Assembly (NCBI GenBank): GCA_022768785.1
Contig: JALELI010000101.1
Coordinates: forward strand, 18,637-82,636
Length of the DNA stretch: 64,000 nucleotides
Source of the DNA: Arcanobacterium sp.
GTDB lineage: Bacteria > Actinomycetota > Actinomycetes > Actinomycetales > Actinomycetaceae
Direction of reading: 5' to 3'
Below are positions 52,675 to 62,643 of the stretch, one piece after another; within the stretch, counting starts at the first letter, position 1, and each line of letters begins with the position of its first letter. The translations under genes and the position numbers were made by a program. Below the pieces are notes generated by a model that searched no databases, was not told where the DNA came from, and saw only the letters and a list, made by a program, of their open reading frames with translations.

Positions 52675-54273
52675 TTAGTAGATTTTATATTCCTCGATAA
52701 TGCGTTTTTTCACTGCATTTTTGTCGATCTTTCCCCCGGCCGTTAGCGGCAACTGTGGAACAATGCAGAAATAAACTGGCACTTGGTATCTCGCTAGGCG
52801 CTGATTCAGGCTCATCTTTATCGCGTCGAATGAGATGTTGCTGCCGGGCTTCGCCACAATTGCAGCAGCCCCCACTTCTCCGTACATCACATCAGGCACC
52901 CCAACAACGGCTGCGTCTGCCACAGAATCTAGGCCACGAAGTTCTTCCTCAACGTCGATACACCAGATTTTCTCGCCACCACGGTTAATCATGTCTTTCT
53001 TGCGGTCGAGAATATATACGAACGATTCATTGTTGATCGTGCCAACATCACCGGTAGCAAGCCAGCCATCTGCTCCTGGAGATTTTTCCGGAAGTTTGTC
53101 GTACCCAGGGGTGATGTTTGCCCCGCGCAGGTATATTTCTCCTACAGCCCCTACCTCAACCTCAGCGCCATCGTCATCACAAATTTTCACGTCCATTCCT
53201 GGAATGGGTTTACCGGAGCTTCCTATAAATGGCGAGGTGGCGGCGTCAGACGGGAAAACGAATCCCGGCGAGCACGATTCGGTGAGGCCATAAATCGTTC
53301 GGAATTCCATGCCGGGCATCCAGTCGTGCAGTGCGCGTATCCGAGAAACCGGCATATGCGCGGCACCGCAAGCGATTTTCTGCACGCTCGGCAACTCGGG
53401 GAAGCGTTCGCGTTCTTCGAGCATTAAAGTAAACACCGTAGGAGAGGCGTGAATGAAGCTGATGTTCGAGATAAAAACTTCTCTCACGAACGAACGGCCC
53501 ACCATGCGCTTTTGCACGTGGATTGTGCCTCCCAAATAGAGGAAGAGCCCAATAATCGCGATCATTCCCGTCACGTGGTAGATGGGGACAGCGATGATCG
53601 TTGAGTCGCTGCTCGAAAGCCCGAGAACGCGCGCATAGGAACGGACGGCGTGCACTGCATTCAAATTTGAGAGCAGCACTCCCTTGCTCTGTGACGTTGT
53701 GCCAGACGTGAAAAGCAAGATCGCATGATGCGCTAGTGAGGCCACGATGGGAGGCTCCTCGCCGTGCTGCTCGTCAATAGGGAGCCCGTATGCACACGAA
53801 TTGGAGTTGCTCACGATCACGCGACATCCACCAAACCACTGGGATTGCTCGGGGTGGCAGATCACGAGATCCAGATCGGCTCGCGCCACAAGCGCAAGTA
53901 TCTCGGCTTTTCGGAATTTTCCTGGAAGGGGCACAGCAACCGCACCCAATCTGTTGAGCGCATAGAAAGACGTGATGAAATCGATCCCGTTGTCGAGCAA
54001 GAGGCCTACACGGCTGTTTTCCGTGATGCCGTGCTCGTGATAGAGCAGCCGCGCAAAATTATCAACCAGAGCTAACACTTCTGCAAATGTGTATGAGTGA
54101 GAATCTTCGGTGACGATGGCCGGTTTAGACGCAAATTTCTGGGCGCTGTTCACGAGAGTTTCATATAGTGATGACGGCGTGGGCATGTAGGTTCGCACCT
54201 CACGCCCTGCAACAGTGATGTGCTCCATATCAGACGTCAGCTCTGTGGGCCAGCAATCTTCACCTCGTAGCAT
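52675..54273 (-). CDS. AMP-dependent acyl-CoA synthetase/ligase
   Basis: ILLFTSGTTSQSKGVLLSNLNAVH, GLTESCSPG, GWLATGDVGTINNESFVYILDRKKDMINRGGEKI, GGKIDKNAVKKRI. RBS aggagg before ATG 54273. Confidence 0.92.
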   Translation of the reverse strand: MLRGEDCWPTELTSDMEHITVAGREVRTYMPTPSSLYETLVNSAQKFASKPAIVTEDSHSYTFAEVLALVDNFARLLYHEHGITENSRVGLLLDNGIDFITSFYALNRLGAVAVPLPGKFRKAEILALVARADLDLVICHPEQSQWFGGCRVIVSNSNSCAYGLPIDEQHGEEPPIVASLAHHAILLFTSGTTSQSKGVLLSNLNAVHAVRSYARVLGLSSSDSTIIAVPIYHVTGMIAIIGLFLYLGGTIHVQKRMVGRSFVREVFISNISFIHASPTVFTLMLEERERFPELPSVQKIACGAAHMPVSRIRALHDWMPGMEFRTIYGLTESCSPGFVFPSDAATSPFIGSSGKPIPGMDVKICDDDGAEVEVGAVGEIYLRGANITPGYDKLPEKSPGADGWLATGDVGTINNESFVYILDRKKDMINRGGEKIWCIDVEEELRGLDSVADAAVVGVPDVMYGEVGAAAIVAKPGSNISFDAIKMSLNQRLARYQVPVYFCIVPQLPLTAGGKIDKNAVKKRIIEEYKIY

Positions 54274-55423
54274 TGGCAGTTCCTCCTAAGCTCATACCCG
54301 TATTAAGTAGCTGAAAAGCCGTTGTGGCCGCAGCTCGCAAGCTCGGCTGTGCTTTCTTCAATATTTGTTCGAGGGGAGCTACTTCGCGCACGGTTGAGAC
54401 GATTGCGGAGAATCCCTGCGGGTAAAGTTCTTCGCTTCCTTCTCCCACAATTCCGGCAAAGGCCACCACTGGTACTCCGTATTTCTTTGCCAGTTGAGCC
54501 ACTCCCCACGGCGTTTTTCCATGCGCCGTCTGGTGATCGATTTTCCCTTCACCCGTCACCACAAGATCAGCATCTGCCACGAGCGATTCGAGGCCAACGG
54601 AGGTGATGACGACGTCAACTCCCGGCTGTGCTTTCGCTCCAAGGAGAGCGATAAATGAGACGCCGAGCCCGCCAGCTGCCCCGGCACCTGGCATCTCAGA
54701 AAATTTTTCGCCATATGTTTCATCTAATATGTGGCCGTAGTGTGATAAGGCGGAATCAAAAACCGGAAGCTCTTCCGGCGTCACTCCTTTTTGTGGGCCA
54801 AATGTGAACGTGGCCCCCTGTGCCCCAGCAAGCGGATTATTCACATCGCACGCTAAAATCACTTCCACGTGGCGCCACGCTGCGCGGATAGCGTCACCTT
54901 CTAGGTGATGGGCTTTTTCTAAAGCTAGCGGCTCAACTGGAATCTCTGCCCCCTGCTCGTTGAATAGGCGTACCCCCAGCTCATAGGCCATACCCCAACC
55001 GCCGTCATTCGTGGCAGAACCGCCCAAACCGATAATCACTTTCTGCGGGTGGAGAGCGAGGATTTCTCGCAGTACGATACCCACACCACGAGTGCTGGAG
55101 GCTCGCGGGTTTCTCTCTTCCGGGGAAATATGCTCGATTCCAATTGCCTCAGCAACTTCGAAGATTGCAATCCGCGTATCAGCAACCCACCCGATACGGG
55201 CGGCTCTCGGCCGCCCGAGGGCATCGAGCGTTTCAATGCTGAGGAATTCTCCGCCGAGCGCGTCTACTAGCGACTGCGTAGTGCCCTCGCCGCCGTCTGC
55301 CATCGGCACTTCAGTGCACTCTGCATGCGGCCACACTGCCCGCGCTGCCTCAGCAACTGTTGCAGCAGCCGTCTTTGCAGACATCGTCTCTTTGAATGAA
55401 TCCGGCGCAATAACGATCTTCAT
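54260..55423 (-). CDS. Glycerate kinase (GarK/GlxK family)
   Basis: MKIVIAPDSFKETMSAKTAAATVAEAARAVWPHAECTEVPMADGGEGTTQSLVDALGG; IGLGGSATNDGGWGMA; VTGEGKIDHQTAHGKTPWGVA. Confidence 0.94.
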   Translation of the reverse strand: MKIVIAPDSFKETMSAKTAAATVAEAARAVWPHAECTEVPMADGGEGTTQSLVDALGGEFLSIETLDALGRPRAARIGWVADTRIAIFEVAEAIGIEHISPEERNPRASSTRGVGIVLREILALHPQKVIIGLGGSATNDGGWGMAYELGVRLFNEQGAEIPVEPLALEKAHHLEGDAIRAAWRHVEVILACDVNNPLAGAQGATFTFGPQKGVTPEELPVFDSALSHYGHILDETYGEKFSEMPGAGAAGGLGVSFIALLGAKAQPGVDVVITSVGLESLVADADLVVTGEGKIDHQTAHGKTPWGVAQLAKKYGVPVVAFAGIVGEGSEELYPQGFSAIVSTVREVAPLEQILKKAQPSLRAAATTAFQLLNTGMSLGGTANATR

Positions 55424-55519
55424 GGTCTCTTCCTCTGAGACGCCGGGAATTGAGGAAATCAGCGATTCGCCATTCCCACAATTCCCAGCGCCTACTGATT
55501 ATGAATGATGCCCAGTGGA

Positions 55520-56857
55520 TTATGCCACTGGCTCGGCGTCACTTACCTGAGATTGGTTGCGATATTTCAGGAATAGTACGAATACAGATCCAACAATCAC
55601 AGCCCCGATAATGAACCACAGACCAGCGAGCTTGTTCCCAGTTGATTCCTCCAATGCTCCCATAACAGTGGGTCCAAGGAAACCTCCGATGAGGCCACAC
55701 ATGTTCATGAAAGCAACTGCCGCAGCGGCGGTTGCCCCGGAGAATCGCTGTTGTGGGAACGTGAACAAAATCGACTGAATCACAAACAACTGCGATGCAG
55801 CGATGAAGAACCCAACCACAGCAATCCAAAGATTGCTCGATGCCACCGCAGCGATTGTAAGACCACCGGCAACAATCAAGAAGCCGATCGATGCCATCAT
55901 CTTGGAGCGGCGAAGCCCCACTGCATACTTAGGCAAGAACCATGAGCCCAGAGCAGCTGCAACCCATGGAATTGCCGTAATCAGGCCAACCGTTACTGTG
56001 CTCATCTGTGCATCGTAGGAATGGATCATCGTGGGGAGGAAGTACGACAACGAATAGACGGCAATCTGATGAGTGAAATAGGCTAAAACCACAATCCACA
56101 AGATCGCATCTTTGAGAACTGGCCCGAGCGAACGTAGATCATTGTGGCTTGATTTCTCTCCCACATCTTCGCTCTTAATGACGTCCGAGATGAGCTGCTT
56201 GTCTTCTTCGGTGAGCCACTTAGCTTCCTGAGGAGAGTTTGGAAGCATCTTCCACACTAGGAATGCTAGAAGCACAGCAGGGAGCCCCTCTAGGATAAAC
56301 ATCCATTGCCATCCGTGTAGCCCTGCAAGACCATGGAGCTGGAGAAGAATACCAGCCAAGGGGGCACCGAGAATATTTGCAATCGAAACCCCTAAAAGGA
56401 AGATACCGATAGCACGCGACCTATATTTCTGTGGAAACCAATAGGAAATATAGAGAATAATCCCTGGATACAAACCAGCCTCAGCAGCACCTAAAAGGAT
56501 CCTGATCACGTAGAAAGAGGTGTCGTTCCACACGATTGCCATCAGCATCGAGATGACGCCCCATGTGATCATGATACGCGTGATCCAGAATCTTGCTCCC
56601 ACTTTATGCATGATCAAGTTAGAGGGAACTTCTAGAATTGCGTAACACAAGAAGAATAGCCCTGCTCCAAGGCCATAGGCCGCTGCAGAAAGCCCGATAT
56701 CTGCGGCAAGAGATTCTTTTGCCATACCAATATTAGTTCTATCAATAAAACTAATGATGTACACCGTTACAAGCAGCGGCATTAACTTTTTAAAGTTCTT
56801 TTTCGTTAAAAGATCTAGCTTCGATACTTGAGAAGAATCTAGTGTTTGAGATGTCAT
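55520..56857 (-). CDS. MFS transporter, anion:cation symporter (ACS) family-like
   Basis: LVTVYIISFIDRTNIGMAKESLAADIGLSAAAYGLGAGLFFLCYAILEVPSNLIMHKVGARFWITRIMITWG, the typical ACS N-terminal pattern. Confidence 0.9.
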   Translation of the reverse strand: MTSQTLDSSQVSKLDLLTKKNFKKLMPLLVTVYIISFIDRTNIGMAKESLAADIGLSAAAYGLGAGLFFLCYAILEVPSNLIMHKVGARFWITRIMITWGVISMLMAIVWNDTSFYVIRILLGAAEAGLYPGIILYISYWFPQKYRSRAIGIFLLGVSIANILGAPLAGILLQLHGLAGLHGWQWMFILEGLPAVLLAFLVWKMLPNSPQEAKWLTEEDKQLISDVIKSEDVGEKSSHNDLRSLGPVLKDAILWIVVLAYFTHQIAVYSLSYFLPTMIHSYDAQMSTVTVGLITAIPWVAAALGSWFLPKYAVGLRRSKMMASIGFLIVAGGLTIAAVASSNLWIAVVGFFIAASQLFVIQSILFTFPQQRFSGATAAAAVAFMNMCGLIGGFLGPTVMGALEESTGNKLAGLWFIIGAVIVGSVFVLFLKYRNQSQVSDAEPVA

Positions 56858-56874
56858 CGTGTGCACCTTTCTCC

Positions 56875-58056
56875 TCACCCTGCATACGCTCTAAACACAG
56901 CGGCCACGCCTTGACCGCCACCAATACACATAGAAACCAACCCGAATTCTTTGCCGGTGCGCCGCAATCCATACAGCGTGCGCAGAGAAAGAATCGCGCC
57001 AGTAGCTCCAACCGGGTGACCGAGCGCAATTGCACCGCCGAGTGGATTAGTTTTCTCCATATCGAGATGCTGGTCTCGGATAACTGCGAGCGCCTGCGCA
57101 GCGAAAGCTTCGTTGAGCTCGATCCAGTCCACATCGTCGAGAGAGATCTGCGCTTTTTCGAGAGCACGCGGAATGGCAAGTGCTGGAGCGAAACCCATAA
57201 TTTCGGGAGCGACACCAGCTTTTGCGAAACTCACGAGCTCACCAATGGGGTTCAAGCCTTCGGCTTTTGCAACCGACTCCGTGGTGAGTACCAGCATTGC
57301 CGCAGCATCGTTAATCCCTGAAGAGTTCCCTGCCGTCACCGAGCCACCCTCACGGAAAGCCGGACGAAGTTTGGCAAGTTTCTCAACGGTTGTGCCTGGG
57401 CGCGGATGCTCATCCGCATCGAAAACGCGCTCCGTTTTCTTTTCTTTAACTGTGACGCCGAAAATTTCTGGGGCGAAGAGCCCTTCCTCTTGCGCCTTCA
57501 CCGCACGCTGTTGAGACTGTGCGGCAAACTCATCTTGATCCTCACGGGAAATTCCAAATTTGTCTGCCACATTTTCGGCCGTCATGCCCATCGGGTAGTT
57601 GCCGAAAGGATCTGTGACGAGCGAAAGTGTGCCGTCCACAAAGGTATGGTGCCCCATCTTCCAGCCGTTGCGTGCCTCAAAATCCATGAATGGCTGCCGA
57701 GACATATTTTCGGAGCCGCCCGCAACAACGAATTTCGAATCGCCCGAATGCAGCTCGAAAGCGGCTGATTGGATCGCTTGTAGGCCTGAACCGCACAACC
57801 TATTAACGGTGTATGCGTTGGAATCTTCACGAACACCTGCAGCTAGAGCAATCCGGCGAGCCAGAAATGCATCTCCTCCAACTTGGCCAACGCAGCCAAC
57901 CACAACTTCGTCTACAGCATCGGATGCGATACCCGCACGGGAGAGTGCTTCTTTCATCGCGAGCGATCCCATAATGTGATTGGGCGTGCCAGATAGCGAA
58001 CCTGCATAACTACCTACGGCAGTGCGAGCCCCCTCAATAACAACAATTTTTTCCAT
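56875..58056 (-). CDS. Thiolase (acetyl-CoA C-acetyltransferase family)
   Basis: VNRLCGSGLQAIQSAA, GGSENMSRQPFM, NPLGGAIALGHPVGATGA, SMCIGGGQGVAAVF. Confidence 0.94.
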   Translation of the reverse strand: MEKIVVIEGARTAVGSYAGSLSGTPNHIMGSLAMKEALSRAGIASDAVDEVVVGCVGQVGGDAFLARRIALAAGVREDSNAYTVNRLCGSGLQAIQSAAFELHSGDSKFVVAGGSENMSRQPFMDFEARNGWKMGHHTFVDGTLSLVTDPFGNYPMGMTAENVADKFGISREDQDEFAAQSQQRAVKAQEEGLFAPEIFGVTVKEKKTERVFDADEHPRPGTTVEKLAKLRPAFREGGSVTAGNSSGINDAAAMLVLTTESVAKAEGLNPIGELVSFAKAGVAPEIMGFAPALAIPRALEKAQISLDDVDWIELNEAFAAQALAVIRDQHLDMEKTNPLGGAIALGHPVGATGAILSLRTLYGLRRTGKEFGLVSMCIGGGQGVAAVFRAYAG

Positions 58057-58070
58057 TGTTTTCTCCTCGG

Positions 58071-59531
58071 TCACTTCTTTGTGATTACGTGTGATACTGC
58101 TTCCCGCGCAGCATCGTTGTCGTCAACTTCAAGAACTTTCCAGCCGTCTTCAGTTAGCTGAACTAGATAGTGCTCGGTGGCTAGATAGACTTCCTGCCCC
58201 TTGTTCAGTGCCGCCTGCCCATAGAAAGAAAGTTGATCCACTTCCTCCACCCACTTGGGGTGCTTGGAATCGGCCACCATGAGGAAACAGATCCGCTTCG
58301 CACCGTCTACGATGTCCATGAATCCACCGCACCCGATAGCTTTCCCTCCAAATGCGGAGACGTTCACATTGCCGTGCCCGTCTACCTGGCCGACTCCCAT
58401 AAACGTGATGTCCACACCACCGCCGTTGTAGAAATCAAACTGTTGCGGGTGCTCAATAATCGCTGCAGGATGCAGAGCACACCCGAAATCCACCACTCCC
58501 AGTGGCACGCCTCCATAAGTGCCTGATTCCACAGTGAGTGATACATTCGCGATTTGCCCACTCAGGGCTAGCGCTCTGCCGATCGAATCTCCCGGCAAAC
58601 CTGTGCCGAGATTAATCACATCGCCATCTCGCACAAGGCGTGCCCCACGCTCACCAATAGCTACCCGCTTTGGCTCTAGCTCATGAGCTAACAGAGCTTC
58701 CGATAGCTCTTCCGGAGAGGCATATCCCGTAAGTAGATCCCAGTTCACTTCGATTGAAGCGTTCGTCTGCCGGTGATACTTTGCTGGATCCGTCGTCACC
58801 ATCACGTAGTCAACGAGCACTCCCGGAACTTCAACCTGGCGCGCTGGAATATCGCCGCATTCCACAATTTCTTTCACCTGAGCGATAACGATGCCCCCGC
58901 TGTTATGTGTGGCTTGGGCAATGGCCAAGTTATCGAGTTTTGTGACGTCGTCTTCTTGCGACATATTGCCAGCGCGGTCAATACGAGTACCTCGAATAAT
59001 GGCCACATCTAGCGGGAAAGATTTGTAATACAAATACTCTTCGCCGTCAATGTTCATAACCGACACGTATTCATCGGGAGCTGTGGCTTTCCGTGCCGAG
59101 GCGTTGATCCGGCCCCCATCGAGGCGCGGATCCACAAAAGTTCCTAATCCCACGGTTGAGATTTGCCCTGGCCGATGCGCCGCAATAGTCCGATAGAGCG
59201 TGGAGATTTGCCCTTGTGGTAAACAGATGGCTTCCACCTCATCTGCCCCAAGGAGATTTGCCATCGGCGGGTTGAGCCCCCAGTGCGGGCCAACCACACG
59301 TTTCAGCAAACCCGCATGAGCCAGCCGAGCTAACCCATCAACTCGGTTGGATTGCCCCGCAGCATGAACAAATGTGAGGTTATTGGGAACCCCTTTTTCC
59401 AAGAAAGATTTCTCTATCTCGTAATAAATTTCATCGGCTACCCCCATCATGGTGAAGCCGTTGCCAACCACCGTGGACCCATTCGGAATGAGCGAAGCCA
59501 CTTCGTTTGGCAGAACTTGCTGAAAGCTCAT
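58071..59531 (-). CDS. Single-chain acyl-CoA:carboxylate CoA-transferase (YdiF/propionate CoA-transferase-like)
   Basis: GSTVVGNGFTMMGVADEIYYEIEKSFLEKGVPNNLTFVHAAGQSN; catalytic-Glu region VSLTVESGTYGGVPLG; GGGVDITFMGVGQVDGHGNVNVSAFGGKAIGCGGFMDI. Confidence 0.9.
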   Translation of the reverse strand: MSFQQVLPNEVASLIPNGSTVVGNGFTMMGVADEIYYEIEKSFLEKGVPNNLTFVHAAGQSNRVDGLARLAHAGLLKRVVGPHWGLNPPMANLLGADEVEAICLPQGQISTLYRTIAAHRPGQISTVGLGTFVDPRLDGGRINASARKATAPDEYVSVMNIDGEEYLYYKSFPLDVAIIRGTRIDRAGNMSQEDDVTKLDNLAIAQATHNSGGIVIAQVKEIVECGDIPARQVEVPGVLVDYVMVTTDPAKYHRQTNASIEVNWDLLTGYASPEELSEALLAHELEPKRVAIGERGARLVRDGDVINLGTGLPGDSIGRALALSGQIANVSLTVESGTYGGVPLGVVDFGCALHPAAIIEHPQQFDFYNGGGVDITFMGVGQVDGHGNVNVSAFGGKAIGCGGFMDIVDGAKRICFLMVADSKHPKWVEEVDQLSFYGQAALNKGQEVYLATEHYLVQLTEDGWKVLEVDDNDAAREAVSHVITKK

Positions 59532-60289
59532 AGCTTGTATCCTCCGCCAATGTTGATCACTTCTCCGGTGAGGTATGAAGCATCATCCGACACCAAGAAA
59601 GCCACGAGGTTTGCCACGTCTTCCGGCTCTCCAGCACGCCGAAGCGGAACCTTTGCAACCTGCTCTTCATAGAGGTTCTCAAATCCGGCACGAGACGGAA
59701 TATCGCGCAGCGCGCTCGTCATCGCCGTTTCAATAAAGCCCGGGCAAATTGCATTGGCTGTGATGCCTTTGAATGCCAGCTCTTTGGAGATAGAGCGGGT
59801 GAGGGAAACTACTCCACCTTTGGCGGCAGCATAGTTGGTCTGCCCGATGTTTCCCATCCACGATGCGGAGGCAACGTTGCAAATCCTGCCATACCCATTA
59901 GCTCTCATATGCGTGCCCACTTTGCGGCACAGATAAAACACTCCAGAAAGATCCACTGCGATAACGGAATCCCACATTTCATCAGTCATCTTGTGGAGCA
60001 TGCCGTCACGGTTAATCCCCGCGTTATTGACGAGAATATCGATTTTCCCTGTGGTTTCGAGAGCTTCATCAATCACTGCATCCACAGCTTCTCGATCTGC
60101 CACATTCACTTCAAAAGCCAGTGCATCGTTTCCACATAAATCAGCGGTTTCCTGAGCTAATTCGCGGTTAATATCGAGAGCAACAACGCGGGCACCGCGC
60201 TGCGCCAATTTGAGCGCAATCCCACGCCCAATTCCTTGAGAAGCACCCGTCACCACCGCAACGCGGCCTTCTAATGGACAACACGACAT
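59528..60289 (-). CDS. Short-chain dehydrogenase/reductase (FabG/3-hydroxyacyl type)
   Basis: VAVVTGASQGIGRGIALKLAQRG; NNAGINRDGMLHKM; YAAAKGGVVSLTRSISKELA; LTGEVINIGGGYKL. Start at MSCCPLEG. Confidence 0.92.
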   Translation of the reverse strand: MSCCPLEGRVAVVTGASQGIGRGIALKLAQRGARVVALDINRELAQETADLCGNDALAFEVNVADREAVDAVIDEALETTGKIDILVNNAGINRDGMLHKMTDEMWDSVIAVDLSGVFYLCRKVGTHMRANGYGRICNVASASWMGNIGQTNYAAAKGGVVSLTRSISKELAFKGITANAICPGFIETAMTSALRDIPSRAGFENLYEEQVAKVPLRRAGEPEDVANLVAFLVSDDASYLTGEVINIGGGYKL

Positions 60290-60318
60290 TGTGTAACCTC
60301 TTTCGTATAATTGGGGCA

Positions 60319-61371
60319 TTAGCAGGAATTGCCAATGCGCATTTCGTATCGACAAATAACTTCGTGCGGTGCTACACGCACGTTTCTCACCAAATCTCCT
60401 AAATAGGAAACAGCAGCCCCCGCCATCTGCGTGATTGGCTGAACGATAGTGGTAAGTTCTAATTCTTTTTCAAAGGGATCCATGACGCCGTCAAAACCAG
60501 TGAGCGCCACATCGCGGGGTATAGAGATTCCTGATAGCGAGAAATCCGAATAGACCCCGTATGCGATCGCATCAGTGCCGCAAATAATCACTTCGGGAAG
60601 CCCTCTGCTGAGCCCGCGGAAGTATCGAGCGGCTTGCAGCCCACCTTCAACTCCTAGCGGAATGCGAATGATCCATTCTTGCGGCACAGAGATCCCGTTT
60701 TCCAAGAGCCCCAAGAGATATCCCGATAGTCTCTCATTTGACGCCGATGAACGCCTCGGGCCAAGTGCCAATGCAACGTTTGTGTAGCCTTTATCGGCCA
60801 CATACACCGCCAGCTCATATGCGGCCGTTGAATTATCTATTCCCACGAAAGGCGCCTGAACTGTAGGCATCTTGCGCGACACCTGAACATATGGGATCCC
60901 ATATTTGCGCAACTCTCGCGCTATTGAGGCATCGCCATCTTGCGTGGCAGTTAAGATAATTCCATCCACGTGGTGATCGGCCATCGCTTTCACGGTAGAC
61001 AACAATTGGTGGGGATCGTCTTCTGTGTGCGACAGATACGAATCAAAACCTGCGTTGCGTGCCTCTTGAGATACGGCAACCCCGAGTTTCTGGTAAAACG
61101 GGTTTCTCAAATCAGCGAGAATTAACCCCAACAGAGGCTTGGTGCGCGCCCCCATCTCGGCTCGTGCCGGAATCTCTAGCCCAAACTTTTTGGCTGCATC
61201 GAGTACTCTCTTTCGAGTGTGATCCGAAACTCCAGATTTGCCGTTGAGAGCATAGGAGACCGCCGCCGTAGATATCCCAAGGTACTCCGCTAAACCTGCT
61301 GCAGATACACCACATGCATGATCCGAAATATCTTCTCGAGCCACTCGAACTACACCCCCTTGTGAAGCCAA
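60319..61371 (-). CDS. LacI-family transcriptional regulator of the downstream operon
   Basis: GLAEYLGISTAAVSYALNGKSGVSDHTRKRVLDAAKKFGLEIP HTH; LLGLILADLRNPFYQKLGVAVSQEARNAGFDSYLSHTEDDPHQ. Confidence 0.9.
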   Translation of the reverse strand: MASQGGVVRVAREDISDHACGVSAAGLAEYLGISTAAVSYALNGKSGVSDHTRKRVLDAAKKFGLEIPARAEMGARTKPLLGLILADLRNPFYQKLGVAVSQEARNAGFDSYLSHTEDDPHQLLSTVKAMADHHVDGIILTATQDGDASIARELRKYGIPYVQVSRKMPTVQAPFVGIDNSTAAYELAVYVADKGYTNVALALGPRRSSASNERLSGYLLGLLENGISVPQEWIIRIPLGVEGGLQAARYFRGLSRGLPEVIICGTDAIAYGVYSDFSLSGISIPRDVALTGFDGVMDPFEKELELTTIVQPITQMAGAAVSYLGDLVRNVRVAPHEVICRYEMRIGNSC

Positions 61372-61645
61372 TTGCTATTCCGCGCCGAACAGCCAATTTG
61401 CGATCTTGTGATCACTATCTCAATGTGATGTGGGTTAAGCAACGTTAAGTTGAGGACGCAAAATGTGCTCAGTATGATCCGGATCTTTCCAGTGGTTTGG
61501 AGTAATTGAGCAGCTTTTCAGCAGCTAAAACTGAATTTTGGGAAAACTAACGGAGCGCGCATAAACAGACTATGGAGAGAAAGCTAAACATTTGCGCTGT
61601 GCTACTCATGCTGCTAACGTGGCCCTCTTAATCTTTTAGCAAGCT

Positions 61646-62023
61646 GTGCGGTGTTCCCAGCAGGTGGTGGTATGGAAAGTGGATTCATCTAAATACTGCT
61701 CTGGACGCCCAGATTTACGGCGTTATCGGCAGATTGAGCCCGGCGTTTTGTTTGAGCTGCGCATGGGTTGGCGCAGAGTACTGTTGAGTGATTACGACTG
61801 GTGGCACTGCGTGCTCAACAATTCCTTGGCAAAGTGATCTAGCAAATGGCAAGGCGAGGACTGAGACGGCGTATGGGAAGCAGGCACTCCTGATAGCCCT
61901 AAGCGGCGGCAATTAGAAAGATATAAGGTGAAAAGCTGGGATCGCTGCCTGCGCGTGGATCCTAATCGCACCATGCAGACAGTCTTTTGGGAAATCAAGC
62001 CCGAAGACGTGGCACATCACTAG
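61646..62023 (+). pseudogene. DUF3841-like protein, interrupted by two in-frame TGA codons
   Basis: SGRPDLRRYRQIEPGVLFELRMGWRRVLLSDYDWWHCVLNNSLAK*SSKWQGED*DGVWEAGTPDSPKRRQLERYKVKSWDRCLRVDPNRTMQTVFWEIKPEDVAHH*. LLSDFD.WH.vLN and ..Q..FWEl..edV resemble DUF3841 from memory. Confidence 0.5.
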
Positions 62024-62643
62024 TTCTTCAAAGGATACCCACAGAGAAACACACAGTAACTGCTGGCTCCTGCTTGCTCACCAAGCGGTTTTATCTGGGC
62101 GCCACAGCTACCAAACGTTGAAGAAATCCCGCTTCAGAAATGGCGTTGATCGGGCTTCCAGCATCACGAAGGCGTTAAGCTTTTATAAGTTTTTTGGGAA
62201 TCGCTAACCCCGAATGCCCATCTACGCAGATCGAGGAACGCCAACAACAAGAAGTGTTGTTTTCCTGGTGAGAGATACATCGGCCGTTCCGCCGGTTACT
62301 GTTACAAGAGCTTGAATATCAGCACGTTTGCCATGCTACAAAGTAGCATTGACAACAACTCGTTCACCACGCAATTTATCAGTTCCACCATATCGCGCAG
62401 TTAATTCCTCTGCAGAAGCTGGATTTTGAATAGCAACGCTCTGCTGTCGGGTGCCGGTAGATGGGGCTAGATCAAGTAAAATATCGTAGCCGTAGCTCTT
62501 TTGTGCACCGTAAAAATCTTGCCGCAGGCCTCGCATTGCTAGCGCGTTATGATGCAAAACGCTCTGCACGCCGCACACCACATCATGAGCTGGCTGTGAG
62601 TTGCTCGGGCTCTGCCCATTCACACCACAGCATTTCACATATT

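Follow-up and report, generated by a model that had tools for sequence, protein, structure and literature searches.

A LacI-associated operon of Arcanobacterium resembling the BKACE-less, acyl-CoA type of 2-deoxy-D-ribonate catabolism cluster of Klebsiella

Two oxidative routes for the catabolism of deoxyribonate were described by Price et al. in 2019 (PMC6365646): (i) a route that uses a beta-keto-acid cleavage enzyme (BKACE), found in Pseudomonas simiae, Paraburkholderia, and Burkholderia; and (ii) an acyl-CoA route that dispenses with BKACE, found in Klebsiella michiganensis M5al (cluster BWI76_RS23695-RS23730). The M5al cluster encodes a CoA-synthetase, a beta-hydroxyacyl-CoA dehydrogenase, a thiolase, a CoA-transferase, a glycerate kinase, two major facilitator superfamily (MFS) transporters, and a lactonase, and according to mutant fitness data its genes are important on deoxyribonate but in none of 92 other growth conditions. 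The authors proposed that deoxyribonyl-CoA is converted to 3-ketodeoxyribonyl-CoA and then to glyceryl-CoA and acetyl-CoA; the Klebsiella evidence is one of gene requirement by mutant fitness, with the cleavage chemistry a proposal (PMC6365646). The step from glyceryl-CoA to glycerate is listed by GapMind as unknown (PMC9007349). The substrate is a natural compound, linked to DNA damage and found in human urine at about 25 mg/day (PMC6365646). Here we analyzed an operon at positions 52675-61371, minus strand, of a 64,000-nt stretch of DNA from Arcanobacterium sp. (the window, in which all positions are numbered unless a locus is named), which is part of a 1.93-Mb draft genome of 96.5% completeness. 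Its seven open reading frames (ORFs) were assigned by Pfam and NCBIfam profiles to a LacI-family regulator, a short-chain dehydrogenase/reductase (SDR), a CoA-transferase, a thiolase, an MFS transporter, a glycerate kinase, and an AMP-forming ligase (Table 1). Comparison with the described clusters makes it very probable that this operon serves the catabolism of 2-deoxy-D-ribonate by the Klebsiella type of pathway.

The cluster of K. pneumoniae (L013, L014), which encodes a ligase, CoA-transferase, SDR, thiolase, two MFS transporters (MFS1 and MFS2), lactonase, and glycerate kinase as in the M5al description, was used to represent the latter. Each window protein was compared with the whole 5.37-Mb K. 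pneumoniae record, so that the cluster gene could be ranked against its paralogs. For five of the six enzymes and transporter, the glycerate kinase being the exception, the cluster gene was the top match: (i) the thiolase (51% identity; 398 bits vs 314 for the runner-up, best of 8 matches); (ii) the SDR (51-52%; 242 vs 201 bits, best of 38); (iii) the MFS transporter, with MFS1 (52-53%; 465 vs 317 bits, best of 25); (iv) the ligase (33%; 276 vs 119 bits, best of 10); and (v) the CoA-transferase (39-40%), for which the cluster was the sole place matched in the record. The MFS transporter belongs to the ACS family and matches the HpaX and galactonate transporter profiles. An ISKpn1 element was also observed between the thiolase and MFS1 genes of the K. 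pneumoniae plasmid copy of the cluster (L013:8027-9390), where it may split expression of the cluster.

At the catalytic loop the window SDR has ASASWMGNIGQTNY and the Klebsiella SDR ASASWLGNVGQTNY, giving the common pattern ASASWxGN(I/V)GQTNY, with close variants in Varibaculum vaginae (SESWQGN) and A. culturomici (SASWEGN). This signature is missing from three BKACE-linked SDRs and from three Klebsiella paralogs. In the SDR phylogeny the Klebsiella protein sits at an open fork among FabG-like proteins, so the argument is carried instead by the loop signature and the best-match tests. The top solved relatives of the window SDR are K. pneumoniae structures 7tzp and 6t6n/6t6p, which have the catalytic loop in common with it but were deposited as 3-oxoacyl-acyl carrier protein reductases, not as a catabolic dehydrogenase. 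Structure 7tzp is identical to the SDR of the Klebsiella cluster (L013:10649-11383) over 244 residues, and 6t6n scores almost equally. On this match, the three structures are the SDR of the Klebsiella deoxyribonate cluster, and FabG is probably a misannotation; re-identified in this way, they make a direct substrate test possible. The protein of 6t6n has been named FabG2 and is NADH-dependent (PMC8725002), a cofactor use that suits a catabolic dehydrogenase.

The residues expected of the other enzymes are also in place. The Cys/His/Cys catalytic motifs of the thiolase are intact (NRLCGSG, GHPVGATG, and CIGGGQG), and this thiolase is the only one in the host genome, which argues against a role in general beta-oxidation. 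In the thiolase tree the Klebsiella enzyme falls with the Ancrocorticia and A. culturomici enzymes (support 100/99) and not directly with the window lineage, so at least two sub-lineages of thiolase are in use among these operons. The ligase carries the motifs TSGTT, YGLTE, and GGEKI, as well as the lysine of a C-terminal GGKID. For the CoA-transferase the best match in the PDB was 2ahu, one of the structures of E. coli YdiF (2ahu/2ahv/2ahw); the similarity is distant (262 bits), yet the two proteins fall in the same single-chain class I family, and Glu335 aligns with the catalytic Glu333 of YdiF. Its conservation makes this CoA-transferase a candidate for the glyceryl-CoA step missing from GapMind.

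The arrangement is not confined to the window. A close CoA-transferase was detected in 17 of 213 Actinomycetaceae genomes (8 of 36 genera) and in only one more among 395 genomes sampled evenly from the class. Since eight genera of the family share these genes in almost the same order, the arrangement is not due to chance; lacI lies directly upstream of the SDR gene in 16 of the 17 family loci, and three of nine Arcanobacterium congeners have the operon (A. bovis, A. pluranimalium, and A. ihumii). Sixteen loci were intact around the operon, 15 from Actinomycetaceae and one from Corynebacterium pacaense, and glycerate kinase is present in 15 of them. This conservation points to a C5 2-deoxyaldonate, because thiolysis of a C5 compound leaves a C3 acid. 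The operon of Schaalia vaccimaxillae has no glycerate kinase and keeps all the other genes. Youngiibacter fragilis has a pair of same-family CoA-transferases spaced by about 6 kb, and a thiolase and an SDR lie upstream of them. BKACE (PF05853) was detected neither in the whole draft genome of the window nor in any of the 17 operon-carrying genomes, in a search for which Deinobacterium chartae served as positive control. Thus an earlier note on this DNA, made from its sequence, was borne out in finding no BKACE, for the whole draft genome and not the locus alone, and the survey of co-occurrence that it had called for found the operon to recur without that enzyme.

From the observed gene content, homology, conservation, and intact active sites we infer, for this organism, every reaction of the following scheme as well as the order of ligation before oxidation, the CoA acceptor, and the LacI ligand. 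The MFS transporter would import 2-deoxyribonate, and the AMP-forming ligase, or the CoA-transferase once the pathway is running, would convert it to 2-deoxyribonyl-CoA. The FabG-like SDR would then oxidize C3 with NAD to give 3-keto-2-deoxyribonyl-CoA, which the thiolase would cleave with CoA to acetyl-CoA and D-glyceryl-CoA. The CoA-transferase would take the CoA off glyceryl-CoA and place it on acetate or the next deoxyribonate, the glycerate kinase would form 2-phosphoglycerate, and LacI would keep the operon repressed as long as neither the substrate nor a derivative of it is present. FabG-type enzymes take D-(R)-3-hydroxyacyl thioesters, and 2-deoxy-D-ribonate has the same spatial arrangement at C3, which is labeled S only because the Cahn-Ingold-Prelog priorities swap; we count this agreement in favor of the scheme. 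The earlier note had put forward a thiolytic 2-deoxyaldonate pathway with 2-deoxy-D-ribonate as an example: such a pathway does fit every gene, and that compound now has the best support as substrate, since the homologous cluster shows mutant fitness phenotypes on it. Whether the CoA loop is closed is a more tentative matter. It is possible, though we would not lean on it, that the CoA-transferase hands the CoA of glyceryl-CoA directly to deoxyribonate as it enters, with the ligase acting only as a primer and no ATP spent on activation, while separate cassettes import the acid (MFS1) and the lactone (lactonase plus MFS2). If true, the closed loop would supply the glyceryl-CoA-consuming step that GapMind lacks.

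Several observations weigh against the Klebsiella-type assignment. The likeness of the K. pneumoniae cluster to that of M5al is by published gene content. The ligase and CoA-transferase are only moderately similar to their Klebsiella counterparts, and the glycerate kinase, at 37% identity to the cluster enzyme, is outscored by two Klebsiella glycerate kinases from outside the cluster. The regulators differ: the window operon has LacI, whereas the Klebsiella cluster has SdaR-like and LysR genes nearby. The A. ihumii operon has neither MFS gene, and no lactonase was found in the genome of the window by a search that had no internal control.

The order of the first two reactions and the identity of the substrate were also weighed. 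In the scheme of the earlier note, the SDR acts on free 2-deoxyribonate and CoA is joined to the 3-keto acid later. We regard this variant as unlikely: free 3-keto acids tend to decarboxylate, and although the BKACE-linked SDRs do act on the free acid, the window SDR sides with FabG-like thioester enzymes, being 51% identical to the candidate deoxyribonyl-CoA dehydrogenase of Klebsiella and 33-35% identical to BKACE-adjacent SDRs, which makes ligation first the likelier order. That the same thiolytic chemistry acts on another glycerate-yielding 2-deoxyaldonate, such as 2-deoxy-D-xylonate or an L-series isomer, we consider quite improbable. Homology of 33-52% does not fix the stereochemistry at C3 and C4, and the core module seems to be used on other substrates, given a cousin locus in another family of the class (L062:7185-16222); however, both the MFS transporter and the active-site loop of the SDR agree with those of the Klebsiella deoxyribonate cluster, the lactonase and MFS2 of that cluster turn up in sister operons, and 2-deoxyribonate occurs naturally. 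Besides its LacI-SDR-CoA-transferase-thiolase core, the cousin locus has genes for an ABC importer, an enolase-superfamily (MR_MLE) protein, and two amidohydrolases, but none for a ligase or glycerate kinase; by its gene content it is possibly a cousin thiolytic pathway for another acid, with the CoA-transferase as the sole activator. Degradation of butyrate, 3-hydroxybutyrate, or a short 3-hydroxy acid is highly improbable, for although the SDR, CoA-transferase, thiolase, and ligase families occur in such pathways and the FabG and BktB profiles score well, the 3-hydroxybutyrate dehydrogenase profile falls about 100 bits below FabG, the operon has no acyl-CoA dehydrogenase or enoyl-CoA hydratase, and, as the earlier note had argued, the LacI regulator, the ACS-family transporter, and a glycerate kinase so widely conserved (here reduced to a hitchhiker) are left unexplained, as are the lactonase and MFS2 of the sister operons.

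Within the preferred assignment to 2-deoxyribonate, uptake appears to be the variable part. A census of lactonase and MFS2, which covered the flanks of the 16 intact loci and, for the window, its genome, found the Klebsiella-type lactonase (55-59% identity) and MFS2 (52-61%) together in nine loci, neither in seven, and one alone in none (Fisher P = 9e-5, the loci being related). The pair was seen in sister operons of A. bovis, Varibaculum, and Schaalia, while six of the seven loci without it, including the window, have MFS1. Both within Varibaculum (V. vaginae vs V. cambriense) and within Arcanobacterium, cassettes are swapped in an otherwise unchanged operon, and a locus from an Ancrocorticia metagenome-assembled genome carries MFS1, MFS2, and lactonase together, as in Klebsiella. 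The strict pairing of lactonase and MFS2 points to uptake of the lactone by MFS2 and of the acid by MFS1. This division fits the published fitness values on deoxyribonate, which were -4.0 for the MFS1 counterpart (BWI76_RS23715), -1.4 for the MFS2 counterpart, and -1.3 and -1.1 for the lactonase, with polar effects named by the authors as another cause (PMC6365646). Lactonase matches on Pseudonocardia and Pseudomonas oryzihabitans plasmids were set aside as unrelated clusters.

Table 1. Features of the operon, in order of transcription.
Feature	Position	Strand	Remarks
LacI-family regulator, first gene	60319..61371	-	Pfam LacI + Peripla_BP; likely start GTG 61344
SDR (FabG-like), candidate NAD-dependent 2-deoxyribonyl-CoA 3-dehydrogenase	59528..60355	-	likely start ATG 60289
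YdiF/FadX-type single-chain class I CoA-transferase, candidate glyceryl-CoA CoA-transferase	58071..59531	-	Glu335
Thiolase (BktB-like), candidate 3-keto-2-deoxyribonyl-CoA thiolase	56875..58074	-	likely start ATG 58056
MFS importer (MFS1 type), candidate 2-deoxyribonate transporter	55520..56878	-	likely start ATG 56857
Glycerate kinase (GarK family), candidate D-glycerate 2-kinase	54260..55423	-	TIGR00045 + PF02595 above cut-off
AMP-forming acyl-CoA ligase, candidate 2-deoxyribonyl-CoA synthetase	52675..54273	-	AMP-binding domain

All seven genes and their families stand as first listed from the sequence; the accompanying description of their junctions as overlaps or tiny gaps holds for most of them. 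The SDR and CoA-transferase genes overlap by 4 nt and the glycerate kinase and ligase genes by 14 nt, with gaps of 14 nt between CoA-transferase and thiolase, 17 nt between thiolase and MFS, and a wider 96 nt between MFS and glycerate kinase. The likely starts of lacI, SDR, thiolase, and MFS are internal to their longest ORFs; that of lacI is preceded by AAGGGGG, and near that of the SDR the homology with the SDRs of Varibaculum relatives sets in. With these internal starts, lacI and SDR probably do not overlap and are separated by about 29 nt. The GC content of the operon (0.47-0.55) is like that of its surroundings, so composition gives no hint of recent transfer. A LacI operator was sought upstream of lacI in 15 loci as a palindrome with a central CG, and none was common to them; promoters and terminators of consensus type occurred no more often than in shuffled sequence, and no Rfam RNA was found in the operon region. 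The 1.2 kb or so upstream of lacI (61400-62640) holds no gene that convinces, and neither Rfam nor, for its ORFs, Pfam gave a match; the stretch could be the remains of a gene or an extended regulatory region.

The pathway type is already known; new are the Actinomycetota host range, the swappable uptake cassette, and the re-identification of PDB entries 6t6n/6t6p/7tzp. The earlier note was right that a BKACE route exists, but it missed the second, BKACE-less route, and its expectation that a CoA/thiolase variant would be new does not hold: the 2019 paper that reported the BKACE route already describes such a variant in K. michiganensis (PMC6365646). No earlier report of the route in Actinomycetota was found in the literature searched, with subscription journals and most databases outside our reach. 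Many Actinomycetaceae, including Arcanobacterium, Varibaculum, Schaalia, and Actinomyces, live on animals or people. The present findings would extend the CoA/thiolase route for deoxyribonate from Klebsiella to these genera, whose habitat is where the substrate is excreted. Compared with the BKACE cluster of P. simiae and Paraburkholderia (the GapMind pathway), the predicted pathway has the same substrate, the same end products (acetyl-CoA and glyceryl-CoA), and a glycerate kinase, with related transporters and lactonase in the wider group of loci; however, that cluster uses a free-acid SDR and BKACE, the latter being absent from the genome of the window. The M5al cluster is closer, having in common with the window the ligase, CoA-transferase, hydroxyacyl-CoA dehydrogenase, thiolase, MFS transporter, and glycerate kinase, the lack of BKACE, and identical proposed steps. 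The two differ in that Klebsiella has a lactonase and a second MFS transporter, places the ligase first, and has no LacI, whereas the window has LacI and a single MFS transporter, lacks a lactonase, and carries a glycerate kinase from a different sub-lineage.

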